NCBI RefSeq assembly: GCF_028583425.1
Contig: NC_072805.1
Location: 15,572,001-15,636,000 of the forward strand
Reading direction: 5' to 3'
DNA length: 64,000 nucleotides
Origin: Eublepharis macularius
Taxonomy: Eukaryota > Chordata > Lepidosauria > Squamata > Eublepharidae
This document shows positions 1 to 63,851 of this stretch, one piece after another. The notes beneath the pieces were generated by a model. That model had not been told where the DNA came from. It made no database searches and was given only the letters and a program-made list of their open reading frames with translations. Positions within the stretch are counted from its first letter, which is position 1. Each line of letters begins with the position of its first letter. The translations under genes and the position numbers were made by a program.

Positions 1-1135
1 ACCACATCAAGCAATCCATTATGTATAGCCAAGCCCTACACTATAATCGCATCTGCTCCAACCCCTCAGACAGGGATACTCACTTGAAGGATCTGCAGCA
101 GGTATTTTTGTAAATATACTATCCCCCTAACATGGTGAGAAGGATGACTGAAAAGGCCAGAATGTTACCCAGGGACAGCTGGCTACAAGATAAGCCCAAA
201 GAAAATAACAACAGAACACTGCTAGTGGTCACCTACAGCTCACAACTCAAACCAGTTCAACACATTATTAATGACCTACAACCCATGCTGGCTTCTGACA
301 CTTCCCTCACACAGGCACTGGCGGGGGCGGGGGGCGGGCAACAATGTCTTGCTTACAGACAGCCTACTAACCTGAAACAACGACTCACCTGCAATGTTAA
401 ACTACTTAACAGTAACATAGACTCCGATACCAAAGCCTGCAATAAACCAAGATGCCAACTTTGCTCTCATATAGATCCCAGCAACACCATCAGTGGACCC
501 AACAACATCAGCCGTACCATCTCAGGTTCCTACTCCTGCTCCTCCTCCAATGTGATTTATGCCATCACGTGGCAGCAATGCCCTTCCACCCTCTGTGTTG
601 GACAGACTGGCCAGTCCCTTCAACAAAGAATTAATGGACATAAGTCTGACATCAGAAAACACACATTCAGAAACCAGTGCGGGAACATTTTAACCTTCCA
701 GGACATTCAGTTGCTGGCCTAAAAATATTAGTGATCCTGCAGAGGAATTTCAAAGGGAGATTAGAAAGATAGACTGCTGAATTGCAACTGATGATAAAGC
801 TCAAGACAATGCATCCACCTGGATTGAATCGAGACCTAGGCTTCCTGATTCATTACCAATGCTGATTTCTCCACACCCACCACCCCTCTGCATACCCCAC
901 CCTATCCAATCACGCCTGCTATTGTCATTCACCTGCTTTGGTCATTCAGCATCTGAAACCCTCATCAAGATATAAGGACAGATGGACTCACATTCTAGCT
1001 TTATCTGAGAAAGTGACCTGTGACTCAGGAAAAGTCGTACCCTACCCCAAATTTTGCTAGTCTTATAGGTGCTATTGGACTCCTGCTCTTTTCTACTGTT
1101 ACAGACAGACTGACATAGCTACCCATTTTGATCTA
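1..1135 (+). mobile_element. Penelope-like element (PLE), 3' part with GIY-YIG endonuclease
   Basis: A frame open from 132 to 722 reads as the C-terminal part of a PLE polyprotein. Its end has the GIY-YIG-type stretch CVGQTGQSLQQRINGHKSDI preceded by a cysteine-rich segment (CNKPRCQLC), as in vertebrate PLEs. The bases before 132 also look like PLE reverse-transcriptase C-terminus (YSQALHYNRIC) but contain a stop before the open frame. After the coding part comes a 3' tail that recurs at 40885-41330 and 52560-52945, ending in a motif shared by many shorter copies (GTGACTCA, then TCTTATAGGTGCTATTGGACTC, then ACAGACAGACTGACATAGCTACC). It is truncated by the window edge and lies in a GARRE1 intron. 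The family name comes from the GIY-YIG and RT-like wording; no database search was possible. Confidence 0.75.
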
Positions 1136-10900: not shown

Positions 10901-13900
10901 GGATGTGGACACTGTTCTGGCTCCGGTTGGGGAGGAGGGGGCTCTGGAACAGCCACACTAGGAGAGACTGTGAGGGTATCTGGGTGGGTGGGGAAAGGCA
11001 TGAATGGACATACGAACAGAAAGCTCACCAAGGGGCCTCCTGTGCCTCTGAGAACTGTTTTTGATTGGCTGAATGGCATTGTTACCTCTGCAGGTGGACA
11101 TAACGATGGCCAGACACCACTTTTTGGCCTCTTCCCTCAACCTCATTCTCTTTACGCAGCACATTCTGCTTCCCTGCCCATAAGTCACTTTCTGGCTAAG
11201 TGCTTAATATGCAGCACTTGAACAAACATGCCTGATTGCTGACTAGTTTACATTGTGGGGTATGTGTGTGATGTGTCTGTCTTTTCTTTTTGAGGGGTAG
11301 AGAACTGAGTTCAGAGGATTAGATGAGGGGATAATTGTAGTAGGAATAGCCAAATGTGTCAACTGTCAGTATTCTGTTTTTACATCCAGTTGGATCTGAT
11401 CCAGAGTTTGCCCGCTATGTGGCTGGGGTCAGCCAGGCCATGCAACAGAAAAGGCAAGCACAGCACTTCCGTCGCCCCAGCAATGCACGTAGCAACTGGC
11501 CTCATCCTGATGACCCGCACAGAACCTGGCCCTTCCCTGAGTACTTTACAGAAGGGTAAGGAGCCACCTGTAGTGATCTTTCATTACAGTCAACTTTGCA
11601 AACAAATGTACAACTTTACTAATTTATTCTTTGCTTAACAAGGGTTTTCTGTAGCACTAGGTAAAAGGTGCAAGCACCGACCCATAGGGGGAGCCTTTTT
11701 GTTACAGGGTGGTTTGCCATCGCCTTCCCCAGTCATCTACACTTTACCCTCAGGAAACTGGGTACTCATTTTACTGACCTCAGAAGGATGGAAGGCTGAG
11801 TCAACCTTGAGCTGGTTACCTGAACCCGGCTTCTGCCAGGATCGAACTCAGGTTGTGAGCAGAGCTTGGACTGCAGTACTGCAGTTTACCACTCTGCGCT
11901 ACAGGGCCTGTAGCACTAGATGAAGTAATTTTATTGATTGGTGGACTTCCAAATGGAATGCTGCAGTGATGTGTGGGTGCTCTGCTTTTGTTATTGAGGC
12001 TGTTAACATTGCTTCTAAAGAGCTTTGGTGTGAATATGGTCAGGATTGGAATGGATATGAATACCAGAAGCAAAAGCCACAAGATAAATATTTTAAGACC
12101 CTATTATGAAGAGACTGGGTTGTTCAGTTTGGCCTTTTTAATTAAGAACATGTTTTAAGGTTTTCCTTCTTGCCCAAAGAAGTTTGAGTGTCAGACAGGG
12201 ACTCCTGAATCATAATAAAATGTTAATTTCGCCTCTGAGCACTTGTATCCCTACACATATTCTGACTGCTCCTTTGTTGCCTTCTCTTAGTGAGATGACC
12301 AGCAGCTGGTCGGGTACTCAGGGCGATTCTGCCAGCTCCAGCGATGAGACCTCCTCTGCCAATGGAGACAGTTTGTTTTCCATGTTCTCAGGGCCAGACA
12401 TCATTGCTGCAGTCAAGCAAAGAAGGTGAGCAGAGGATCCCTTTGACTTGTTGTCGATGCAGAATCTCTGGTGCTACATGATCTCTCTGCAAATATGTAC
12501 ATTACCTGTACAGAGCATAACCAGTAACCTTCTAGAGCTAAATAGCCTAAAGTTGATGCTGAAAGCCCATCCCCTTGAGGATGTGTTGAGAGGTTGCGTG
12601 GTGGTTTTTGAAGCACCAGGCAGAGTGTACTGCTTGCTGCCTTAACATTTAAGACTAACCAACTTTATTGTAGCATAAGCTTTCGAGAGCCACAGCTCTC
12701 TTTGTCAGATGCAGAGAGCTGTGATTTCCGAAAGCTTATGCTACAATAAAGTTGGTTAGTCTTAGAGGTGCTACTGGACTCTTTGCTATTTTGCTACTGC
12801 AGACTAACACAGCTAACTCCTCTGGATCTATGCCTTAACATTTTGACTGTTTTGAGTCACAAAGCAAACTAGATGTGGAAGACGGGAGTTTTTCAGAGCG
12901 TGTCTGTGAATTGCTTTATTTAGTTATTTGAAATTAGGAAGGGCAGTAACTCAGAGACAGGAAGTTTGAGGCACCATCTCTGATTCATCAGGGTTTTTTT
13001 TTAATCTAAGGTTTCATCTGTGTCTTACTGCTCTTGGTCCTTAGTATGCATTAGAGAGTTAGGAAATGCAGTATGGGGCGAGGTCTTTTTCTGTTGCAGA
13101 TGCAAGCCTGTTCCTATACTCTGTTCTAGATCATGGGGAAGGAGGCACATATATTTGTGTCAAACATACGTTTGAAGATGCAGGCCTGATCTTGTTATAC
13201 ACGTAGGCTCAGTTCCCAGTTGCATGCACACGCTGCTGTGAAACACCAGTCAGAAAATCAACTTTTGAGTCTCTAATGCTACTCAATGGCTACACCAGTG
13301 ACTCTCCTGAGTGCTGTTTCCTGTAACATCCGCTCTGTTCTAGGAAGGTGGGCAACTTCTTGAGATGTTGGAATAATTTCATCATTGCCACAGGCCAAAG
13401 ATAAAGTAGTTTTGTTTTTGAAACACAACACAACTTCTCCATGGTATTTCTATCAACGTTTTGGAGATGAAGGGCTTCTTTGTGTGAGTTTCGGGCAGCA
13501 TATGCCGGTGCAAAAGCTTGAAGCTAGGGAGCACACCAAGGCCCGGTCTTTCTGCATTTCTTTTGAGAAGAATACAGCATTAAATATTGGGGTGTTGTGG
13601 ATGCGCAAAACTTGACTGTTAATGACTCCCAGTCCTTGAGTGCTGTGATCAAGAGTGTGTTTTAGCCCATGACCTCTCATAGCTGCGAGAGCACTGTGTC
13701 AGCATTGTATGTCGTGTCAGAATCATCCTTAGCTCTCAGTTATTTGGGGGGAATTACCATCACCCTTCCCTCTTCCTTGTGTATTATAAAGATATTTCGA
13801 CATACTGAATACAGTATTTTTCCTACCTTGGTTGTCCTAAAACTCTGTCTTTTAGCTGATCGGGTTAACAAACCATATTTTCTCATTGAATAAATATCCC

Positions 13901-16900
13901 CACAGAAAACACAGCAGTGGCGAGCAAGATCCCACCACGCTTCCATCCCCACCACTCCTTTCTACAGTGGATGATCATAATCAGGTAAGTAACAAGCTGT
14001 TCATCTTCGTTCTTCTGTGCCTCCACACATGGGACTGCGCAGGCGCAGGCCAGCCGCCGGAGAATTTTCTAGAGCTTCCATGGCTCCGAAGGGGCCGTTT
14101 GTCGCGCGCCTCAGCGACCGTTTTCCCGCCCAAACGGTCACGTGATCCTCCAGCGACCAACGGCCCCTTCCCTCAGTTCTCTTCTTGCCGCCGCTTGGAG
14201 AGAACGTGAGCTTCGTTGCTCTGTGCTTTTTTGTGCTTCGTGCTTTATTCTGACTGATTGCTTGGCTTTTGACTTCGGACTTCGTGACCTCGACTATTCT
14301 TCGGATCTCGTTTTGGACATTGTTGTGGACTCGGTAATTTGACTCGGACTGTTTTTGACCTTCCTTTCGCGTGCCCCTGAAGATGGCCTCAAAGGCTCTC
14401 TTCAAGCATTGCCTCCAATGCCACACGAAAATGGCCAAAACCGATGGCCATGAACTGTGCCTGTTCTGTTTGGGAGAGACCCATAATGTGACGGCCTGTA
14501 AAATTTGCCAGGGCTTCACCAGCAAGGCCCGGCAGGAGCGCAAGGCCCGATTGAATTCCTCCCTGTGGCAGAAGGTCATGTCCGGAGGCGCTCCGTTGCC
14601 CTCCTCCAAGGCCGGCCCAAGCCCCTCTGCCGAACGGCATTCCAGAGCTGGCTCAGTGGCCTCCGCGAGGTCGGGGTCGAAACCGCGTCCCCCGAGTACC
14701 TCGGCGTCGAGAGCGGCCTCTCCAGCGCAGGGACCGGTGCGGCCGCCCCGTAGCGCTTCATCTACCAGGTCGGATCCGAGACCAGCTTCGGAACCGAGGA
14801 TCCTGGTACCGAGTCCCCGGTCGGAACCGACGGCCGGATCGGTTCCGACGAAGCCTAAGAGGTCGAAGCCGAGGTCCCCTTCGAAGGCGAGGAGCGCGTC
14901 GGTTCCGAGTTCTTCTTCGGAACCACCGAAGAAGAAGAAAAAGACCAAGCACCATCGGTCGCCGCGTCCCGCTCCTCAGGAGGAGGTCATCGTGCTTCCT
15001 CACACGCCTTCCCCTCATCTGGGCTCCCCGGAGCCAGAGGACATCTCCGTGCAGGTGCCGGATCCGATGGCCTTCGAGACGGTGCCCGCGGAATTCTCGT
15101 CGGGGCCGGAGCCGAGCCCGCACCGTCGGAGCCGACCATCGCTTGCCCTTCGGTCGCCGAGGCTGGAACCGAGCCCATCTCCTCGTCGGAGCCGTCCGTC
15201 GCCTGTCCGTCCGTCTCCACCTCTGGTCGGTCGTGAGCGGCATGGTTCCGGGGACAGTGTCCGATCAGTCCGGTCCACTGCGTCCCGGCATCGGCAAGCT
15301 TCCTACCTCCCCTCGCCATACCGTTGCCAATGGGAGGGGGCACCTGCGGGCTTCTCCGTGTCGGAACCGAGGCCTTCGACGTCGAGGTCGGCGTGGGCTC
15401 CCCCTCCGCTCCAGGTTCCGGAATCCCAGCTCGGTTCCGATGAGGAGGATGTCGAGAGCTTTGGCGGCTACCAGTCGGAGTCCTGGTCCGAACCATCGCC
15501 GGCTGAGGAGCTAGTGGCATCTGCGGACTCGCCATTCGAGGACCTCCGCATCTACGCCGATCAGATGGCAAGGATGGCCAAGGCTCTCGAGATGGACATC
15601 TCTTCGGCACTTCCCCAGACCAAGGACAAGCTCCTCAAACGTATCTATGGAGATAATCCGGCGTACGTAGGCTTCCCCATGCTCGAGGGTATTGAGGAGA
15701 TTGTGGAGAAGGTGTGGCAGGTGCCCTGTGATCAACCTCCAACGTCCAAGCGCATCGAGCAGCTTTACAAGATCAAGCAGGGCACCTGGCCGGCGTTGGT
15801 GAAACACCCTCCACCTTCCTCCTTGGTCACAGAGGAGTTCAACCCCCGACGATCGGGTCACTCCTCGGTGCCTGCCGATAAAGAGGGCAAGAAGCTTGAT
15901 GCCATGGGCAGGCGCCAATACATCGTCGCTTCGCTGGGTCTGAGGATTGCCAACTACCAGACCATCATGGCAGGGTACCAGCTGTACCTCTGGGAGAAGT
16001 TGGCATCCTATACCCGGGACCTCCCTCCTGAGCAGAAGGCTGTGGTGTCCCTGCTACAGACGGAGGCTGTGAGGCTGTCTAAGCAGCAGATGAACGCTGG
16101 GAGCCACGCTGCTGACACTGCTGCTAGAGGGATGGCGTCGGCGGTGGTCCTCAGGCGCCACTCCTGGTTGCGGTCTACGGCCCTGTCCCAGGAGGTGCGT
16201 TCCAGGGTGGAGAGCATGCCCTTTGAAGGGGACTCGCTGTTCTCCAAATCGACCGACGAGACCCTGAAAAAGAAAAAAGAGGACAGGCAGACGGCGCGGT
16301 CCTTGGGTCTGGCTCCAGCGGACAAGCCCTCCTCCAGGTCACGGTACGCTCCCCGGTCCGGCCCTTACCACTACCAGGGCAGATACCAACAGCAGCGGCC
16401 GGGCTATCATCAGTATCCTGCCTACCAGCAGCGGCCCTACCCTCCCGCACAACAGCAGAGGAGGCGTCGGCCCTTCAAACCTCGTCAGGCACAGCAACCG
16501 GCCCTGCAGAAAGAACAGCAGGGCGCCGGGAGGCAGTACTGACAGGTCACGCCAGCCGTATCCCTGAACTTTTCGGACAGACTTAGTCCACTCCTCTCTG
16601 AGTGGGAGTCAATAACATCTGACTCATGGGTCTTAACTATTGTTGAACTGGGGTACGGGCTGGAGTTTGTTGAGCTGCCTAGATGCAGTTCACCCCTGAC
16701 AGCTGTCAATAACACTATGGCCGAGCTGGATGCGGAGATCGTGTCGCTCTTGGCCAAGGGTGCTGTGGAAGAATTGCCCTATGACGACTCTGTAAAGGGT
16801 TTCTTCTCTAGGTTCTTCCTGGTCCCTAAGAAGGGTGGGGGCTTACGTCCCATCTTAGATCTGAGGGGCCTTAATGCCTTCCTCAAGGTGACCAAATTCA

Positions 16901-19900
16901 AAATGGTAACGTTGGCGGCGGTGATCGCCTTGCTGAAACAGGGGGATTGGTTTGCGGTTCTTGACTTAAAAGACGCATACTTTCACGTGGGCATACGGAA
17001 GGAGCACAGGAAATACCTGAGCTTTGTTTACCGGCAAAGGGTTTTCCGGTATAAGGTGCTCCCCTTTGGCCTGTCCACTGCCCCACGAGTGTTCACTAAA
17101 TGTGTGGCCCCTGTGGTTTCCTTCCTACGGGAAGAAGGTTGTACTATCTTTCCGTACCTCGATGACTGGCTCATCGTGGCTGACTCAGTGTCTAGGCTGG
17201 TGCAGGACATTGGCTTGGTACTTAGCACGTGCCAACGCCTGGGGCTCCTGGTGAACTTGGAGAAATCCAAACTGGTGCCCAACTGCAAGGTGTCCTACAT
17301 TGGTGCACTTTTGGACTCTGTGGAGGGTAAGGCCCTGCTCCCCTTGGAGAGGGCTCGGTCCCTAAGGGGTCTAGTGTCCATGTTTAAAAGGAACCGGTTC
17401 CAGTCTGTGCGCACTATCCAGTGCTTACTAGGGCATATGGCAGCGGCCACCTCTGTGGTGCCTTTCGCTAGGCTGCGTATGCGCCCTCTCCAGAACTGGT
17501 TTGTGCGGAGGTACGATGCTCTACTGCACCCTCCGTCCCTCAAATTCTCTATCCCGAGGGTCATCCTCTCCTCCTTGGACTGGTGGCTGTCTGATGACAA
17601 CTTGTTTAGAGGGACCCCTTTTGGGTATCAACACCATGACATCACGGTTACCACTGATGCCTCTCTGATGGGATGGGGTGCTTACTGTGGTGATGTGGCT
17701 GTGCAAGATGTCTGGTCTGACAGGGAAAAGACCCTCCATATCAATGTGCTTGAACTAAGGGCCATTCGTTTCGCACTTGTGTCTCTTACAGCACTGCTGA
17801 GAAATCGTCAGGTGTTGGTGCAGACGGACAACACGACTGCCATGTACTACGTGAATCAGCAGGGGGGCACAGTGTCCATGGCCCTGTGCCGGGAAGCCAC
17901 ACTCACTTGGCAGTGGGCTATCAAGAACGGCGTGTCGCTCCGTGCTATACACGTGGCTGGGTCAGACAATGCCCGGGCAGATGCCCTCAGCAGGGTCCCT
18001 TTACTGGAACACGAGTGGGAACTGAACGTAGAGTACGTTGGGCCGATCTTCCAGATGTGGGGTCATCCAGTGATAGATGTGTTCGCCACTGCGGCGACCA
18101 CCAAGGCCCACACGTTCTGTTCCAGGGCAGGGAGCGACCCCCTCTCTATTGGGGATGCCTTCCAGTTTACGTGGACGCAGGGCTTGCACTACATGTTTCC
18201 TCCGTTCCCCTTGATTCCCAGGGTCCTGTGCAAGATAGAGGAGGACGGGACGGACTGCATCCTAGTGGCCCCCTTCTGGCCACGGCAGGTTTGGTTCCCG
18301 AAGCTCCTGCGGATGTCCAAACGGACGTATGTGAGTCTGCCTCCTCGGCAAGACCTTCTCCTAAACGGGAGCCTAGTCCACCACGATCCCAAGCAGCTGC
18401 ACCTAACGGCTTGGCGGATCGTTCCTCCCCGATAGGCTTTACTGACGAGGTACAGAGGGTCCTCCTGAATGCTCGTCGGCCATCCACTAGGCGCGCTTAT
18501 GCGGCCAAGTGGCGCAGGTTTGAGCTCTGGGCACTTGCCAGAGGGGTGGTGCCTGACAGCAGTCCCTTGGGGGTTGTATTCGAGTATTTGTGCCACTTGC
18601 GTGGTATGGGCTTGAAGGTTTCCTCCCTCAAGGTCCACCTGGCAGCGATATCAGCTGCTCACACCCGAATTGAGGGTGCTACGGTGTTTTCTCACCCACA
18701 ATCCCGCCAGTTCCTTAAGGGCATGTACAATCTTTACCCACCTGTGTCTGCGCCAGTGCCTCGGTGGTCACTGTCCTTGGTGCTCTCACATCTCATGTTG
18801 CCTCCATTTGAACCTATGGCTACATGCCCCTTGGATATGCTATCCTACAAGGTAGCATTCTTGGTGGCCGTCACGTCGGCCAGAAGGGTCAGTGAACTGT
18901 CTGCACTGCGGTCTGACCCTCCCTTTCTTGTGTTTCATCCCAACAAGGTGGTCCTGCGTCCCTGCCTTGAGTTCCTGCCCAAGGTGGTGTCCGCCTTCCA
19001 CCTCTCGCAGGATATCTCACTGCCTGCATTCTTTCCTCAACCCTCCTCTAAGGGGGAAAAGGCCCTCCATACCCTAGACTTGAAGAGGGCCCTAGCCTAT
19101 TACCTGGATAGGACGAAGGGATTCCGCTCCAGTCCTCACCTGTTTGTATGTTTTGGGGCCAAGGACAAGGGTAACAGGGCTTCCTCACAGACCCTGTCTA
19201 GGTGGATTGTGACGGCCATTAGCAAGGCCTATTCCCTAGCAGGGGTGGCTTGCCCGCTTCATGTCAGAGCCCACTCCACGCGGTCCCAAGCATCCTCTTC
19301 GGCACTCCTCAGGGGGGTGCCCCTGGTTAACATTTGTAAAGCAGCCACATGGTCCTCTGCAGACACCTTTGTCAGGCATTACGCCGTTGATGTCAATGCG
19401 GAGCAGGATGTATCTGTGGCCAAGGCTGTCTTACACTCCCTCTTTTCCTGAGGGAGTTTTGGTATGACTTTCTTGACGTACCTGTTGGGTACCCTTGAGT
19501 GAAAGTGTGTATATATGTACCTGGGGGTGTGTATATATGTAAATATTGAGTATTTATGTGTCCTTACACAGTATTTTTACATAGATGTATATATGCATAT
19601 CTATTTATTGTTGATCTTGTTTGCTTAATAAAATTGTGTTGGACTTCACCCCCGCCTTCCTTATTGTGTGAAGCTTGGTACACTCCCATGTGTGGAGGCA
19701 CAGAAGAACGAAGATGAAAACAGGGTTAACATACCTGTAACTTATGTTCATCGAGTTCTTCTGTGCTGACACACAACCCTCCCTCCTACCCCGCTGTGAA
19801 CTCCAATGCACAATACTGTGTTGGCTGTAACGGAAATTGGTGTTTTTAAGGTGTTATGGCTGAAGTGTGTTGGTCAAGCGGCGGCAAGGGAGAACTGAGG

Positions 19901-23670: not shown

Positions 23671-23975
23671 GTTATATCTTGTTAAAATAACGTTTCTGCT
23701 GAAGATAACTTGCGACTTTTGACAGGTATTCATTATCTTCAGTAGACGTGTTTTTCTTTTAATCACAAATAGTGTTCAAAAATTCAAAATGGCGCATCTT
23801 CTAAGATGAAAGTTGTGGCCCCTTCCCTTTTAAATCTACCAATGAGAGATGACTGAAAAGAGGCTGCAGTAGTACAGTGAGGTAAAAGCTTATACTGTGG
23901 GCCATGATTGGAGAAATAGCATCCGTAGCTACGGCAATCCAAGAAAGTCTTGTATGAGAGCATACTAAGCGATAT

Positions 23976-24143
23976 AGATCCAGAGGAGTTACCCGTATTC
24001 GTCTGTAGTAGCAAAATAAAAAAGAGTCCAGTAGCACCTTTAAGACTAACCATAATGCATCTGACGGAGAGAACTGTGGCTCTCGAAAGCTTATGCTACA
24101 GTAAAGTTGGTTAGTCTTAAAGGTGCTAATGGACTGTTTTCTA
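23976..24143. mobile_element. PLE 3' end foldback
   Basis: Reverse copy starting with AGATCCAGAGGAGTTA (complement of the PLE terminus) and running through TAAGACTAACC, then a forward copy from about 24057 with CTCTCGAAAGCTTATGCTAC and TTGGTTAGTCTTAAAGGTGC. Same family and head-to-head arrangement as 12651-12830. Confidence 0.7.
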
Positions 24144-25536: not shown

Positions 25537-28500
25537 CTATTTTGAAAAAAGCCAAAGGACACAGTTTGTGGTGGGGAAGATTCCCTGTGGTAAACGTAAG
25601 TGTGGCTCCTCTAGCCAGTGTGTAACTGCCACTATAGAATATAGGTCTTTTAAGGCTCATTCAAGACCTATGAAAGTCAAGAAAAAATGTTAACAGATTT
25701 TCTGGCTTTACATCAAAGACAGGTGATTCGGTAACAAAACGGCAAATGAGACTCAAGGGAAGTATAATACAACGAACAACAGAACAACAGAAATCCTGCC
25801 TCTAGCTGTGAGTTCCGTCTACCCCAAAGAAATGTTATATAAAACTATGGAGTCGCACATATCAAAGAGCTAGGGAGTGCAATTAAAGTAGTGGAAAACC
25901 TTCCATAGGACAGATAAATAATGATGAGCTTTTTAATTTAGGGGAAAATGGGAGAGTGGGAAGCCCTGACAGGTTTCTCACCAGGTAGCGTTTGAGGTTA
26001 GATTGATGGGGGGGGCAGGACGGATGGAAGGAAGTTCTTCCCTCAACAGAACATTAACATGGAGCTTTCCGCAAGATGTGGTTGTGGCCAATAGCACGAT
26101 GAGTCGCTAAAGGTGCAAGCAGTTTAGCACAGGTAGCAGCTCTCTTTAAACCACACACAGTGAGTGCAGAGTCTGATGAGAGAGCTTTTGGCTTAGCTGT
26201 AGCGTTAAAAACAAAAGATTAGACAAATTCAATGAGAATACCCTCGACAGTTATTGGTCAGAACAGTTAAATGGACTATCCATAGTGAGATGCAGCAAGC
26301 TTCAAAATATCAGGGCCAAACGAAACACAATGCTAGCATTTTTTTTCCTTTTCACACAGCAGGCATGTGAGGCCAAGTCAGATTAGAACTGCCATATAGG
26401 GGGTGGGGGTGGTTTAAACATGCACTGTGTTCCCAACATGAGGTGGCCTTGCAAAGCTGATTTTTCCCTATTGGGGGTAAACATTTAACCCCCAGTAGAG
26501 TTAACAACAGCTTCATGGGACGATTTCTGGTGAAAGGCAGAGTTAACCCCACCCCATCACCCTAATCTGAACCAAACCCCCACTCAGCTATTTTAAGAGT
26601 AGGAAATGGGAGCTCCAATCCCAGCCCTCCTAGTGTTGCATGTGGTCTGCCCTCAAACGTGGGGGATAGACGAGAAGATGGTGGCCTTTGAGGCCTGCTT
26701 GCAAGTTTCCCAGAGGTGAGTGACTGGTCACTGCTGAAAGAGCTATTGCATCTATGGTAAACGCTTCCAAACATCCTCCCCAACACAAAAGCTGAACGGA
26801 CAGAGGTCCTGGGCAAACAAGCCACTTCCCTTCCAGATGAGGTGGGAGTCAAGAGGTACTGTGGGGAACAATTTTGCAATTCTCCCCAGCTCAAAATCCC
26901 CCACACACATCCCCTGCCCTTTAACTGACAATGTTCCTCCCAACATTTCACATCTTTGGGAACAGCAAGTTTTCCTCAGGCCATCTTTAAACACTCTGGG
27001 AATCCCAGTAAGTTGAGAAGGTTGACTCCTGCCTTGTTTGTGGGTGGTTCATCCACACGGGCCAGACTATATTTTATCTCCTGATTTCAGTGCAACTGCT
27101 CAAGTCTAGTAAGTTATTCTTGCATGTGTCATGCAACTACTACGGTTGGTAGTGTGAATAAAACAAATTCAAAGGAACAAAGCCGTAATGGGTGAATCAA
27201 ATAAGGTACTTACTGCACGCATTCCGCAGCTCTTCCTTTATCTTGATACTCGACAATACACCGAATCAACTGATCATTTTCTTCCAGCAGCTAAAAGCCA
27301 TGAGAGTCCTTGGTCACATTGTGTGCTACTGAGGTTCATTTTAAGGTTATCTAGGTGGAGGACTCTGACCTGGATAGCCCAGGTGAGCCTGATCTCATCA
27401 GATCTCAGAAGCTAAGCAAGGTTGGCCTTGGTTAGTAATTGGATGGGAGACTGCCAACAAAGATCGGGGTGGCAGAGACAGGTAATGGCAAACCACCTCC
27501 GTTGGTCTCTTGCCATGAAAACCCCACTAGGGGTCACCATACGTCAGCTATGACATGAGGGCGCACTCTACCACCATCAACTAGGTGGGGGAAGTTCTTT
27601 ATAAAGGACACACACTACATTAGGTAACACTACAGGTTACAAAAATTATATCCCACCTATTCTTGACGCTTTGTTGTGGCACCCAGGAATCTTAAGGCCT
27701 GCACATCGTTGACCATGTGAATCACTGACCATGGCATATCCTTCCTCATGATATAGTGAGCTTTTCAAGCATTTTAGGGGTCTTGGATTTTAAAAACAAA
27801 TATCTTGGCTATATACACATCAAGACCTTTTCAAAGGACTAACTGTAGAAATAATATATAAACTAAAGTTCTCCAGAACTCTTATTCAGGCTGGATGTTC
27901 AACAATGTGAATATTTCAATGTGTTAAGGAAAATGAACACACATGAAGCTGCGTTTTATTGAGTCAGACTACTGTTCACTCTGGCAACAATGCTCCGGGT
28001 AGGGTCTCAGGTAGAAATCTCTCACCGCACATGTAGTCCAGGATCCTTTGAATGCTGGGGACTAAACATGGGACCATCTGTTATCAAAACAAATACTCTA
28101 ATACTGAGTCATTGCCCTCCCTAAAATATCCAAAATATGTGCTTTTTTTTGGCAAAGTGGAGTACAGCTGCAGTTATTCAAACCACCAGCTGCAAAATGG
28201 ATTTCAGGTTGCCCCAAGGGCAGCTTAGGACAGATAAGCAGTAAGTGGTGGCTCTCGCTCTGAACAAATAAGTCAGTACTAGTTGAGCGCTACCTCTAGC
28301 ACTGATATGTCCTTTGTAAGGCAGAAAAGACCATGGCTCACCTAGAAACATTTCCTATCCCACCCTTGTTTGTATTGGTTAAATATTCATTCTGAAGTGG
28401 AGCCCTAAGGAAGTCAAAAGCTTGTGCACTTATTTGCAATGTTTTTGAACCTAAAGGATGCATTGTGCACAGTTACTGCTTTTTGAGTTGTTAGAAAATA

Positions 28501-30411: not shown

Positions 30412-30610
30412 TGTCATGGCTTAGTGGCGAAGTATCTGTTCGGCATTCAGAAGGTCCAGCATTCAACCCCCATCATCTCCAGTTAAAAGGATCAGGTAGA
30501 AGTGATGAGGAAAGGCCCTTGAGAGCTGCTGACCTTGAGCAAGCAATGGCGTGACTCAAGATGGGCAGCTTTGTACCTTTGGAGGAAGTGAGCTGTGACT
30601 CACCAAAGCT
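30412..30610 (+). repeat. tRNA-derived SINE
   Basis: Head CATGGCTTAGTGGCGAAGTA with B-box-like CAGCATTCAACCCC, then AGTTAAAAGGATCAGGTAG and GGAAAGGCCCTTGAGAGC. Same family as 43285-43490. Confidence 0.65.
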
Positions 30611-31385
30611 CAATAAATAATTAATCAAGCAAATATTGCACCAGTCCCTTTTGGTATGGAAGATCCACAAGCAGCTCTGTGTGTATGATACAATTATGAA
30701 ATGGCGGTTAAATGGCAATAAGCACTAGCACTTTATCGGTATGATACTCCATAGGATATATATGCTATAGGCATGATATATGATAGAATGATTGTATTAT
30801 TAATGTGGTTTGCAGGTTGCCATATTCTAGTATGTCTGTGAACTAATGTAATATACAAGAGAGAGAATCGTTGCTTTGATATATAAATATCATTAAATGG
30901 GTATTGAATCCAGGTTGACCGAAATTGCTTTTTAGTAGGTTTTCACGATTTGTATTTTTGTTGAGCTAGAAGCAGGCTAACATGGCAGTCATCATGTGCT
31001 GGTATGATGACTTGATGCTATCTCTCTCCGCTCCCACTCCAAGGATCAGCATTCACACACTGCGCTTTCGATCACCCAAACTCACTGCCACAAATCCAGC
31101 CTCTGCTACAATTCCAAGTCTTGTTCCTGCCGCTCCAGTTCTGCCAAAAGCAAAATGTGCACACCAACATCCCACGCGGCCCCTCTTGTCTCTTTCCTGA
31201 GGAAAAGCTACAGTATCTTCAATTCACCCTCAGAACAAATACAACATTATTCCAGTCGTTTTATTCTCTCTCCTCACCCCACCTTCCTCCAATCCTCTGC
31301 AAGTTAACATAAAGCCCCCTCAGGAATATTTTATTGAGAGAATAGGGAATAAAAATTAGCCTGGAAGATAACCCCCTACCTTCAC
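30611..31385. other. Spacer, nothing recognised
   Basis: AT-rich stretch without a gene. The short forward frame at 30982-31200 has no family resemblance. Confidence 0.4.
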
Positions 31386-31885
31386 TTGGCCGATCTGGTC
31401 ACCTGGATCCATGCCATGGTAACATTGAGACTTGACTACTGTGACGCAATAGGCATTGGAGACTGGTTAGTGCAGAATGCTGCAGCTCTGTTATTATCAG
31501 GAACTAGGTGGTGCATGCATATTACACTGATTCTGCAGTCATTCTATTGGCTGCCTCTTAGTTACCAGGTTCAGTTCAACTACTCTTCATTGCCTTTGAC
31601 CCTCATACCTAGAAAGCTGCTTCTCTTCCTATGCCCTGCCGTGACCACTTACCCGAACAGGATCTTCTACTGGCGCCACCTTGCAAATGGGCAAGATCAC
31701 CAACTGCTGGTGTAGGTAGATTCTCTGTAATGGCCCACACCCTATGGAATGGCATAAAGAGTCCTATTAATTGTTTTTTAGGTGTCTCCTCATCCTACTG
31801 CTTCTACTGGGTTACATTATGTAACCTTCCTTAAGTCTCGGTGGAAAAGGTGGACTATAAATAACATACATAAACAAACAAATGG
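31386..31885 (+). mobile_element. L2-type LINE, 3' end
   Basis: An interrupted frame shows TLRLDYCDAIGIG, then LVQNAAALLLSGTRW and YWLPLSYQVQF, the reverse-transcriptase C-terminus of L2/CR1-clade LINEs. It ends with AAGTCTCGGTGGAAAAGGTGGACTATAAATAAC, split by decay. Old and truncated. Confidence 0.75.
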
Positions 31886-32234
31886 TCTGTTTACAGGGGA
31901 TCCTGTCTTCATGCAGAAATATACATCCAAAGTTAACCTTGTATGTTGTGTGCCTGATTAAAAAGGAATTGCAGTTTTATCTGGTCTTGTTAAGGTGTGG
32001 GAACAGAAACAGGCCCTGAGGCAAAATATGCTTTCTGGCTTCAGTGCAGTCTGCATCCATCTTTCCCCATCTTGAGCTGTTCAAGTGAAATGACATGGAA
32101 CCTCTCATCTCGTGCAGTTGGAAGTGCCTGCTATTATTTATTTATTAATGTATTATTCACTTCACAGATATAAATCTATATGAGGCATGACAATATTGGC
32201 CATCTTATTTTCAATCCCTTTCCAAATAATCCCT

Positions 32235-32385
32235 GTGGATATTGTCAAAGGCTTTCATGGCCGGAGAACGTTAGTTGTTGTAGCACCTCTGAAGATGCCA
32301 GCCACAGCTGCTGGCGAAACGTCAGGAACTACAATGCCAAGACCACGGCCATACAGCCCGGAAAATCTACAACAACCAAAAATCC
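32235..32385 (+). mobile_element. PLE-related repeat with hammerhead motif (family A)
   Basis: Starts with a reverse-oriented terminus (TGTCAAAGGCTTTCATGGCC) joined at about 32280 to a forward copy: CTGAAGATGCCAGCCACAG, then GCGAAACGTCAGGAACTAC, then ACAGCCCGGAAAATCTACAA. The terminus-to-head joint is again an inverted arrangement. Related copies: 34485-34735 and 56700-56825. Assignment to PLEs rests on the shared ribozyme layout and on memory of reptile repeats. Confidence 0.6.
32278..32334 (+). ncRNA. Candidate hammerhead ribozyme (family A)
   Basis: Core CTGAAGA (32289-32295), one extra base, helix II GCCAGC/GCTGGC (32297-32302 with 32310-32315), GAA (32316-32318), a two-pair loopless helix III ACGT (32319-32322), and cleavage-site base C (32323). 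Helix I: CCT/AGG, a 2x2 internal loop, then GTAG/CTAC, extendable by two A-T pairs. All three helices can be drawn. Activity is untested. Confidence 0.65.
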
Positions 32386-32454
32386 CTGTGGAGTTTGCCT
32401 TTTTCTCTGGTGCTGCACACAGTATCGATATTTTCATCTAGGAATTTGACACAA

Positions 32455-32560
32455 CTCCAAGATCTTTATTTATTGTCCACCTTTTTCACTGAGACTCAAT
32501 GCAGATTACACAGCATAATTCAGCACAATCAACAGCAGACTCATCGAGTAAATAAGTATT
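32455..32560 (-). repeat. L2-type LINE tail, reverse
   Basis: Complement of the tail seen at 54830-54890: TTTATTGTCCACC, then TTTCACTGAGACTCAATGC and GATTACACAGCATAATTCAG. Confidence 0.6.
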
Positions 32561-32744
32561 TCCTTTTGTCTATCAAAAATATATCACCCGTCAACTTCAT
32601 TGGATTCCCCTCTAATATTATGGGAGAGGGAGGAAAACTTTAGGTCCATTTTCGCTACTCATTGCATAATTAATGCTTGCCTGTTTAAAAAGGATTCAGT
32701 ATCTTCATTCTTACTAATTCCATTGGGTTGTTTATTCCAATATT

Positions 32745-32905
32745 CATTTATTTATTTGATTTGATTTATACCCTGCCCTCCCCACAAATGGGCTCAGGGC
32801 GGCTAACAACATTCATAAACCACAGTGAATTAATCACAAAAGCATAAAATCAATAATAATCTTTAAAAAGTAATTAAAATAGTCCAGGCGCAGGCTATTT
32901 AAATA
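32745..32905 (-). repeat. LINE tail, reverse (GGCGGGCTCAGGGCGGC type)
   Basis: TTTATTTGATTTGATTTATA, CCTGCCCTCCCC, GGGCTCAGGGCGGCTAACAA, CATTCATAAACCACAGT. This tail type is shared with 33958-34330 and 63080-63235. Confidence 0.65.
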
Positions 32906-32999
32906 AATATTTGGAAGTCCATAGATGGGCATAGTAGATGGGCACAGTAGATATCATGAATGGAGGCCATATTTGAATAAAATGTCTTTGTGAAGAACT

Positions 33000-33608
33000 C
33001 CTCAAATCGAGGATGCATAAATTGCTGTACATGGCAGAAATGGATAAAATGACAAGCTGAGAGATCAGAATCCAGCAGAATTTTTTACTGACTGGGGAAG
33101 ATTGAAAACATATTTAGAAAAGAAGTGGGACATAAAGGGGGAATTATGGCAATTTGAAAATTATTAGAATGGATTTGTTATTAGAAGAGATAGAGTCTTT
33201 ACCATATGAAGTGAAGTATTGGCTAATTGTTAGCCCAAATGTAAGTGGACTTAGAGTTAATAGATATTGTTAGAATTACTAAAGTAGATATTTTATCCGA
33301 CAGTTAGTTTAAATTTAAATATATGTGGAGCTAATATAAAGTAATAGATAATAGATTTTAAGTTTATAACAATATTTTTGAAGTTAATAGATAGGGCTTA
33401 GTTGAATAAAAGAGTAAGTAAACATGAGATAAAGAGTTACAGAAAAGGGACAGATTGGGAATAGATTAGGCTATAGGGTTGGAAAGCTGTTGGAAGTCTT
33501 GGGAAAGGAAGGGAGGGAAAGGGTGGGGGAAAGGATAATGAGATGCTATTTGAAAGTTGTATATTAAGATTCTCACCTAATAAAAATTTTCTAAAAAAAA
33601 AATAAAAA
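33000..33608 (+). mobile_element. L1-like non-LTR retrotransposon, 3' end with poly(A)
   Basis: A short reading stretch FTDWGRLKTYLEKKWDIKGE ends at a stop near 33168, as in L1 ORF2 C-termini of squamates. It is followed by a purine-rich 3'UTR and an A-rich tail (33590-33608). 5'-truncated; upstream frames are broken. Confidence 0.55.
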
Positions 33609-33957
33609 TCTTATATAAGCAGATATTTTCCCCATACGCCTCATAAACCAAAATTTCCTCACCCATTTTTTCAGTAACAGGTACCTTCTCTTGTTTTCAT
33701 GTTCATTCTTAGCAAGACATGTTTACCCCCCACTGTCTCTATTGTCTCTAGAGCTAGGTGCAGCTCTGCAAAAACGTTCAATTTGTGTTCTACGTGGGCC
33801 TGTCCTTGAAGTCGACTTGGAGACTCCAGTTGGTGCAGAATGTCACATCTTGGTTATTATCAGGAACCACACCCGTTCTGTAGTCGCTCCATTGGCTGCC
33901 TATTAGTGATTGGCTTCAGTTTAAGGTACTATAAAACCCTTCCGGGCCTTGGACTCA

Positions 33958-34330
33958 CATATTTATTTATTTATTTATTTAATCACATTTCTAGACCACC
34001 CTTCCCGTCAGACGGGCTCAGGGCAGTTTAACAACAGCTTAAAACAGTAAAAACGTTATAAAAACATTAAAACATCATATCAAAACAATTTAAAATTGGC
34101 GGGTATAAAATATTAAAATATAGCATTGTCCTGCATGGGTGGTGGAAGGTCTTCAGTGGTATGGCCGGCGAGAGGACAGCCCAGCCCCCACCAAATGCCT
34201 GGCAGAACATCTCCGTCTTGCAGGCCCGGCAGAAAGATAACAAATCCTGCCGGGCTCGCAGGGCCACCTCTCCTCCTATGCTCTCCCACAGCTCCACTCA
34301 TTTGAGCCGAGCCTTCTACAGGTGACACCC
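33958..34330 (-). repeat. LINE tail, reverse, nested in the L2 copy
   Basis: ATTTATTTATTTATTTATTT, then CACCCTTCCCGTCAGACGGG and CTCAGGGCAGTTTAACAACA; continues through a GC-rich part to about 34330. Confidence 0.6.
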
Positions 34331-34527
34331 TGCAGCTGGGCAAAATACATCACTGCTTAAGCATGTGCATTCTCTGTTGTGGCCCCCATCTTATGAAATG
34401 GCCTGCCTGATGAGATCTGGAAGGCTTTCATGCCATTTTCTGCATTGTTTAACATACATCTAATATTGCATGCTTTGGTTGTTGTGGATTTTCCGGGCTG
34501 TATCGCCACGGTCTTGGCACTGTAGTT

Positions 34528-34568
34528 CCTGACGTTTCGCCAGCAGCTGTGACTGGCATCTTCAGAGG
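34528..34568 (-). ncRNA. Hammerhead core (family A), reverse arm
   Basis: On the - strand: CCT, CTGAAGA, T, GCCAGT/GCTGGC hairpin, GAA, ACGT, C, AGG. Inner helix I has three pairs; outer helix I is unclear. Confidence 0.5.
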
Positions 34569-34606
34569 TGTAGCACCGAAAGACAGAGATCTCTCAGTGT
34601 CAAACA

Positions 34607-34647
34607 CCTCTGAAGATGCCAGTCACAGCTGCTGGCGAAACGTCAGG
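34607..34647 (+). ncRNA. Hammerhead core (family A), forward arm
   Basis: CCT (34607-34609), CTGAAGA (34610-34616), helix II, GAAACGTC and AGG, as in the 32278 copy; outer helix I is lost at the inverted joint. Confidence 0.5.
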
Positions 34648-34909
34648 AACTACAGTGCCAAGACCACGGCTATACAGCCCGGAAAATCCACAACAACCAT
34701 CGTTCTCCGGCTGTGAAAGCCTTCGACAATATATTTATTGTATGGCCCGGAAAACCCCCAACAACCATATTTATTGTATGCTTTGTCGCAGATTTCTGTA
34801 AGTCCTTTTTCTATTGCATTGTTTATTAGAAGTCTTGTCCTATTGCTTGCATTGACTTACACTATTAAATCCACCTTGAGTCTCTGTGAGAAAGGCAGAC
34901 TGTATGGCG

Positions 34910-35410
34910 CAGAGTTGTTTTCCATTGCCCCAGAAGGTTGGACCGGAACCAACGGGATGAAATTAAATCAAAACAGTTTTCAGATAAACATTAGGAAGAA
35001 CTTCCTGACAGTTAGAGCGGTCCCTCAGTGGAACAGGCTTCCTCGGGAGGTGGTGGGCTCTCCTTCTTTGGAGGTTTTTAAGCAGAGGCTAGATGGCCAT
35101 CTGATAGCAATGCTTATTCCGTGAACCTGGGCAGATCATGAGAGGGAGGGCAGGAAGGGTTACATCAGTGCTCGGTTCTCGTGGCCCCTTCTTACATGCC
35201 CAGGGTGATGCCAATCGCCACTTTGGGGTCAGGTAGCAATTTCCCCCAGGCCAGTTTGACTAAAGATTCTGATGGTGTTTTGCCATCTGGGCATGGAGCA
35301 GGGGTCACTGGGGGTTTGGGGAGGGGGAGGTTGTTCTGAATTTCCTGCATAGTGCAGAGGGTTGGACTAGATGACCCCGGAGTTCCCTCTCAACCCTATG
35401 ATTCTAATGT
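34910..35410 (+). mobile_element. CR1 LINE 3' end
   Basis: The first part reads NIRKNFLTVRAVPQWNRLPR and EVVGSPSLEVFKQRLDGHL, a CR1 ORF2 C-terminus. It is followed by the CR1 3'UTR ending GGTTGGACTAGATGACCCC and CAACCCTATGATTCTAATG. 5'-truncated, moderately decayed. Confidence 0.85.
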
Positions 35411-36135
35411 AAATCAAACAGTGAAATGGGAATGGGTATGATTTGAGGGGGGGGGGCGCCATTCCTATTTCTATAGAATAATGCTCTTCATTCTGTGCAG
35501 TGGGATCCTGGACCCTAGAGAGCGGCTACCAGTCAAGGACAGACAAGAGTGACAGTGAGTCACCAACGGTCTGACTTAGTATCACTAAGCTTCACATGTG
35601 ATAAGTCAGACAGAACTGCAAAAGCCAGTCTCTTTGATAATCTTTGGCAGGCTAAACAGAGAGACTCATGCAGAGTTTCTCATTGATTTCAGCTCTAAGT
35701 CGGGTTTGCACAGTACACTAAGCTTTTTTTCTGACAGCAGTTGGCCTCCAGTTTTAATCCAGAATTAAGTGTCCTTCACCTGCCAGAAGACTGGAAAATG
35801 CTAGTCCAGGGTACCCTGACCCTGTCAGATGTGTGCGGATGATCCATGTGCAAGTCTCCTAGTACTGGGGCAAATATCCCTCAAAAGCATTTCAGGACAG
35901 AAGGGATTTTTTAAAATCTCCTGGGCCTTTCAACTGGAGATAACGGAAATTGAATCTGGGATCTTCTGCAGGCCAAGGAAACGCTCCGCCTCCCGCATGA
36001 AAGCTCCGAGCAGCCCCGCCTGCAGATCTAGAAGTCCGCCTCCTCTGCAGAGGTAGATCACGGCTGTGAAGCAGCCCCAGGTCCAAGCGCGCTCGACACA
36101 ATTAGTACTCACACCGCCAAAAACAAAATCCAGGA
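35411..36135. other. Spacer with a SINE remnant
   Basis: About 35920-36000 is a reverse tRNA-SINE remnant (TTCAACTGGAGATAACGG, GAATCTGGGATCTTCTGCAG). The rest is unassigned. Confidence 0.45.
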
Positions 36136-36139
36136 CTGG

Positions 36140-36320
36140 CTATGAATTTATTTACACTATTTTATAATCCGCCCTTCTCACTGAGACTCGAGGCGGATTA
36201 CACAGCGAGAAATCAACACAATCAATAGGATGCAATCCTAAATAAGAGTTACTCCAGTCTAAGCCCATCGATTTCATTGGGCTTAGACCGGAGTAACTCG
36301 GCTTAGAATTGCACTGAGAG
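36140..36320. repeat. L2 tail (reverse) followed by a palindromic MITE
   Basis: 36140-36225 is a reverse L2 tail (TTTCTCACTGAGACTCGAGG in pieces). 36228-36318 is a near-palindrome: GAGTTACTCCAGTCTAAGCCC facing GGGCTTAGACCGGAGTAACTC, split here around CATCGATTTCATT, with GCAATCC and GAATTGC-like ends. Similar elements lie at 39795-39890 and 46985-47062. Confidence 0.65.
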
Positions 36321-36613
36321 CCTTACAGAAATCCGAGGTTCAACCATGCAGAAATTGCACCGCCGCGCTTAAGAAAGTGGCGGCCGAATGCTCTGCGCCT
36401 GGGATGAAAGGTCCGAGCAGCGACTCCTGCAGAGACCCCGCCGGAACCCTCCGCCGCGCTGCGCGTCCAGACGCCTCTGCGCGGCTGGCGGTCAGCCTGG
36501 AAGGGGCGGGCCGGGGAGGAGCTCGCCCGCCCGCCTGCTCAAAAGCGCCTGGCCCGCCGCGCCTCGCCTCTCCTCTCCGCATCTCGCTCGGCTTCTCGCT
36601 GCTGCTGCCCGGC

Positions 36614-63851
<27,238 letters not shown>

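Follow-up and report, generated by a model that had tools for sequence, protein, structure and literature searches.

Minimal hammerheads in PLEs are reportedly the subject of work by Cervera and de la Pena in 2014 and by Lunse, Weinberg and Breaker in 2017. In the reviews that treat them, PLE hammerheads are of type I, have a helix III that is nearly absent and are proposed to act as dimers (PMC7761336 among others). In its available sections this 2020 review gives the role of PLE hammerheads as unknown, and it mentions that small units of the retrozyme type with type I hammerheads occur in animals (PMC7761336).

PAc is the Poseidon PLE of Anolis carolinensis. According to the available text of its description, the hammerhead of PAc overlaps the start of the ORF, with the ATG at the start of stem II and the cut 26 nt after the ATG codon, and two start sites of reverse transcription, one of them near +111-118, give rise to tailed and tailless ends (PMC11167929). 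The PAc protein cuts and extends both DNA strands, and the PAc RNA is cut solely in the presence of its protein; this cut is abolished by the mutations C3G or G8C and is partly restored in the double mutant (PMC11167929, same sections). It should be noted that the hammerhead is dispensable for insertion in vitro, where mutations in it are without effect, and that, as far as the available text goes, the authors found no RNA-seq reads starting or ending at the presumed cut site (PMC11167929). A second element to be considered is the Penelope of Adineta vaga, for which the available part of the publication describes a pLTR that includes the first codons, an optional 31-bp tail and duplications of 8-10 bp. 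Head-to-head is the commonest inverted arrangement of these elements, and the inversion is attributed by the authors to self-priming on an antisense template (PMC3846280). In the limited set of literature searched, no report of a ribozyme in a squamate Penelope was found.

The window, i.e., the whole stretch of 64,000 nucleotides that was analysed, contains at 32240-32380 what is very probably a short, truncated and dead insertion of a Poseidon-type PLE with a layout very close to that of PAc. This insert is flanked by a 12-bp duplication and is a head-to-head mosaic of two arms:

32228-32239, no strand: target-site duplication, left copy AATCCCTGTGGA; the right copy is at 32381-32392
32240-32283, minus strand: left arm, ORF from about +75 to +116 reversed (tail region), from which the outer "helix I" strand derives
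32284-32380, plus strand: right arm, running from -11 to +83/84 (AC-rich site) and including the hammerhead and the ORF start
32286-32326, plus strand: minimal hammerhead motif, helix I from CCT to AGG, predicted cut after 32323
32295-32378, plus strand: start of the PLE ORF, 28 residues, its ATG overlapping the hammerhead

Read directly, the plus strand at 32289-32323 has the order CTGAAGA-T-GCCAGC(7)GCTGGC-GAA-ACGT-C. Core, helix II, GAA, ACGT and C are thereby as given in the preliminary description, which had proposed a candidate hammerhead at 32278, and the start of the 3' product that it had placed at 32324 agrees with the predicted cut. Within the window, BLAST gave copies at 32230-32380, 34570-34474 (minus strand), 34605-34699 and 56728-56823 (family A); where they overlap with 32230-32380, the others are 93.8-95.8% identical to it. 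Shorter matches were at 34690-34732, which is the tail, and at 34745-34767. The three further copies that had been said to keep the core are all there, but that listed at 34528 lies on the minus strand. The additional family A features are as follows:

34464-34477 and 34772-34785: duplication TATTGYATGCTTTG, 14 bp with one mismatch, flanking the pair at 34478-34732
34478-34602, minus strand: family A copy forming the left arm of a head-to-head insertion and reaching into the pLTR; core 34565-34534
34605-34732, plus strand: tailed family A copy running to about +117, with its core at 34610 and a frame open for 39 codons
34745-34766, plus strand: 22-bp PLE insertion, ORF from about +62 to +83, a BLAST match
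56696-56823, plus strand: family A copy, core at 56733, pLTR upstream, TATAAA at 56663

The loose core CTGANGA...GAAAC has four matches in the window, which are exactly the four family A copies (32289, 34610 and 56733 on the plus strand, 34565-34534 on the minus strand). Taken alone this number is not significant, the mean by chance being 1.42 and four matches being reached by 6 of 100 shuffles. A stricter scan of both strands, which required CTGANGA, no more than 2 extra bases, a helix II with 4 or more pairs in its stem and GAA, gave six sites, namely the four family A copies plus 62858 (plus strand) and 62825 (minus strand), all six with one extra base after CTGANGA. On 200 first-order Markov sequences the stricter scan yielded a mean of 0.525 sites and a maximum of 4, and the full descriptor, with the ending GAAASSTH added, yielded a mean of 0.015 per window and a maximum of 1 on the same 200 sequences. 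In all four family A copies helix II is paired 6/6 (with a T-G pair at the loop end in two copies and a G-T pair at the core end in one) and the CCT/AGG part of helix I is paired 3/3. A single extra T follows CTGAAGA in every copy, and helix III is ACGT throughout, i.e., two pairs without a loop, which is not a stable helix; both the extra base between core and helix II and the tiny helix III had been correctly recorded before.

The Rfam hammerhead models, which the preliminary description had proposed as a check, did not recognise these sequences: one locus each of families A and C, scanned over 101 bases, and the stretch 31000-36000 gave no hammerhead match up to E=10, and the window as a whole gave none at the gathering threshold. 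Matches below threshold to MIR1883 and mir-22 at 34533-34644 are probably caused by the head-to-head palindrome at this place and were discarded. A DNA pattern scan of viral and prokaryote contigs gave no relatives. The hammerhead sequence in the 32278 copy is real, and the retroelement copy that holds it is dead and of a known kind. Its description as a minimal hammerhead of type I, borne by a PLE-related repeat, was right, the class being already published; the earlier interpretation as a whole is partly supported.

Helix I had been described as CCT/AGG followed by an outer stem GTAG/CTAC. CCT/AGG is common to the four copies, but the outer stem is present in one of the four, the other three having different bases there; it is a by-product of rearrangement and was rejected as a feature of the family. 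The left 44 bases of the insertion are the reverse complement of the ORF from about +75 to +116 (42 nt of them align to the 34616 copy at 88% identity). The GTAG strand is therefore derived from inverted ORF sequence, and the outer stem is confined to the 32278 copy because the left arm of this insertion is inverted.

In all four family A motifs the fold of minimum energy has CUGA of the core paired across the cut site with UCAG. In energies that leave out the tertiary contacts of the core, this predicted fold comes to -16.2 (32289), -13.3 (34565), -13.3 (34610) and -12.5 kcal/mol (56733), versus -15.2 (with the outer stem), -10.2, -10.2 and -10.3 kcal/mol, respectively, for the hammerhead fold. 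The probability of the C3-G pair in the CUGA:UCAG fold is 0.63, 0.96, 0.97 and 0.96 in the same order, and the folding energies of five stretches are not exceptional when compared with shuffles (z from -1.87 to +0.09). Because CUGA:UCAG is preferred in all four motifs, self-cleavage of the 32278 copy as a bare monomer is unlikely according to these calculations, and the predicted fold fits the protein-dependent cutting reported for PAc RNA. It could be argued that the 32278 copy is nevertheless an active monomeric self-cleaving ribozyme stabilised by its long helix I, since here the hammerhead fold falls behind the best fold by less than the 2.2-3.1 kcal/mol of the other copies. We regard this as improbable: the best fold of this copy still pairs CUGA with UCAG, the stabilising outer stem occurs in this copy alone and takes its 5' strand from the inverted arm, helix III has no loop, and the PAc RNA is, in the available text, uncut without its protein (PMC11167929).

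In family A the ATG begins at core base A9 and overlaps the hammerhead bases A9-U-G10.1, so that the U of the PLE's AUG start codon supplies the extra base. What looked like an "extra" hammerhead base in family A is accounted for in this way. This does not mean that the base is imposed by the AUG purely, which holds only in part: families B and C (see below) carry an A at this position and have no ATG. From the ATG inside CTGAAGATG the frame is open in all four family A copies, the longest frame, that from 34616, having 39 codons and being open to +117. A full PLE ORF was not found in the window, the family A part being at most 39 codons long. The predicted cut falls after ORF nt 29, i.e., 26 nt past the ATG codon. 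A PDB search with the ORF start as a composite peptide gave no PLE and one RNase III domain protein at E=0.48, which was taken as chance.

The ends of the copies are of the Poseidon type, lying in the pLTR and ORF start with an optional tail of 30-40 bp. In tailless family A copies the end lies at ACAACAACC (+83/84), and in the tailed copy it lies 34 nt further on, at about +117. Short target duplications, too, are as in Poseidon-type elements. For example, the head-to-head pair at 34478-34732 lies within a 14-bp duplication with one mismatch, and the insertion at 34745-34766 has by eye an exact 14-bp duplication, ATATTTATTGTATG, at 34731-34744 and 34767-34780. Around the 56728 copy there is only one repeated 8-mer, explicable by chance. 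The insertion at 34745-34766 lies beside the head-to-head pair and contains nothing but the end of the copied region.

The repeats are small, dispersed and equipped with type I hammerheads, as are units known in animals (PMC7761336, available sections), and they could accordingly be retrozymes, non-autonomous units that spread via circular RNAs formed by hammerhead cleavage. For the repeats of this window such an origin is extremely unlikely. The insertions carry PLE coding sequence and end where reverse transcription of PAc starts (PMC11167929, available text). Among the four family A copies there is no head-to-tail hammerhead dimer, and of the five family A arms with a placed 5' end (two at 32240-32380, two at 34478-34732 and one at 34745) none starts at +30, the cut site; for these two reasons the retrozyme reading was disfavoured.

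Two further families in the window, B and C, have the layout CTGANGA, extra A, 5-bp helix II, GAA, AGCT and then C or T. Family C resembles family B (about 74-78% over 66-117 nt). Their main features are:

114-722, plus strand: 3' part of an ORF, GIY-YIG-like by eye, followed by a family B pLTR
996-1048, plus strand: family B motif, decayed
12666-12712, minus strand: family C motif, core decayed (CTGACAA), helices I and II fully paired
24057-24103, plus strand: family C motif, core decayed (CTGACGG)
62784-62829, minus strand: family C motif, core intact, on the opposite arm of the palindromic insertion 62704-62938
62854-62899, plus strand: family C motif, core intact, helix I GCAT/ATGC, from the stricter scan

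That families B and C are PLEs is suggested by the neighbouring GIY-YIG-like ORF, a likeness seen by eye; the fragment 114-719 gave no Pfam match at E up to 0.001. The family B pLTR at 720-1145, which is joined to this ORF part, has a TATA-like box. More family B copies are found at 40953-41324, 52084-52952 and 37559-37765, and there is a weak match at 30572. Families B and C share the architecture of family A and are more decayed than it, the layout being decayed in most of their motifs. The CUGANGA...GAA core with an NUH cut site is present in 4/4 family A, 2/4 family C and 0/5 family B motifs. Helix II is fully paired in five of the nine family B and C motifs, helix I is paired 4/4 in the four C motifs and in 0-3 of 4 pairs in the five B motifs, and helix III is AGCT with the exception of B1 (AAGT) and B2 (AGCC). 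Inverted pairs also occur, in family C at 62704-62938, 12651-12830 and 23971-24141 with duplications of 14, 13 and 8 bp, and in family B at 37553-37764 with a 12-bp duplication having one mismatch. At 62704-62938, a palindromic head-to-head insertion, the 14-bp duplication is exact and both arms have an intact core. No target duplications were found at the 39950 and 52084 loci, and the candidates at 40953 are uncertain because the left boundary of this locus is not known.

Thirteen motifs were considered in total, sequences without a recognisable core (37675 on the minus strand, 39950, 12705 on the plus strand and 24052 on the minus strand) having been left out earlier. MAFFT misaligned helix II of family A against the others, and pairs were therefore counted on 8 of the 13 motifs (families C and B, the four A motifs and B2 being omitted). 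In these eight, 85.2% of the helix cells are paired, versus 78.6% after shuffling and 23.8-45.0% when slid by 1-3 columns. Two-sided changes occur in three pairs, a number reached by 248 of 500 shuffles, and such changes are common to related sequences. As read from sequence, pairing and covariation across families B and C give at most moderate support to the hammerhead layout. It could be objected that a region conserved for the start codon and for protein binding resembles a hammerhead by coincidence, without catalysis at any stage, since the motif is coding in family A, and since in PAc hammerhead mutations leave insertion in vitro unaffected and reads ending at the cut site were not found (PMC11167929, available text). 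Yet families B and C keep the layout without an ATG and with some helix pairs changed, and cleavage of PAc needs C3 and G8 and is partly regained in the double mutant (PMC11167929, same sections). Coincidence is thus very unlikely.

The insertion of a Poseidon-type PLE into this site can be pictured after PAc. The PLE protein would cut both DNA strands, and each DNA end would prime the synthesis of a cDNA from within the AC-rich part of the RNA; head-to-head joining of the two cDNAs would follow. In the parent RNA, cleavage by the hammerhead would take place after ORF nt 29, in codon 10; since the fold favoured by the bare RNA buries the core, this would probably require a dimer or binding of the PLE protein. 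The hammerhead in the 32278 copy is very probably a passenger. Conceivable, if rather doubtful, is a switch in which the bare RNA traps the core in CUGA:UCAG and serves translation or as template until protein bound near the start of reverse transcription frees the core. If this were true, cleavage in codon 10 would remove the AUG and shorten the template, and the protein would limit its own synthesis and transposition.

The window has a reptilian look in its repeats only. A coding exon within 36287-37000, given as the first, matches glucose-6-phosphate isomerase (GPI) at E=6.4e-10 and has three of the four family A copies upstream of it. Downstream of the 56728 copy is an 18-codon stretch with splice signals, which we take to be a GPI exon; this copy may therefore be transcribed in sense inside an intron. 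The window also harbours at 14359-19451 a retroelement that by eye is DIRS-like, with a reverse transcriptase (PF00078, E=6.4e-24) and after it a stretch resembling phage integrases (PF00589, a match below the curated cut-off), and two matches to the 5S rRNA family at 27361-27480 and 55773-55901, which perhaps are 5S-derived SINEs.

The 32278 copy is an ordinary example of a known retroelement with a known minimal hammerhead at the ORF start. The copies described here add to the genomic examples of the PLE layout with bases common to ribozyme and start codon; by themselves they do not demonstrate a new ribozyme. The unequal head-to-head insertions bear on the mode of PLE integration. Like the published minimal PLE hammerheads, that of family A is of type I with an almost absent helix III (PMC7761336, available sections). 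With PAc, as far as the available text describes it, family A has in common the overlap of hammerhead and ORF start, the position of the ATG where stem II begins, the cut 26 nt after the ATG codon and the occurrence of tailed and tailless ends, one of them near +111-118, a likeness that is an agreement of positions and not an alignment; unlike PAc, the copies in the window are truncated and rearranged (PMC11167929). The window copies are also like Adineta vaga Penelope, as described in the available part of the publication, in having the first codons in the pLTR, an optional tail, head-to-head pairs and short duplications (PMC3846280). When the self-priming model put forward for Adineta is compared with two-strand priming, the 62704 insertion with its long palindromic junction fits either, whereas the arms of the 32240 insertion are unequal and would therefore fit two-strand priming better.
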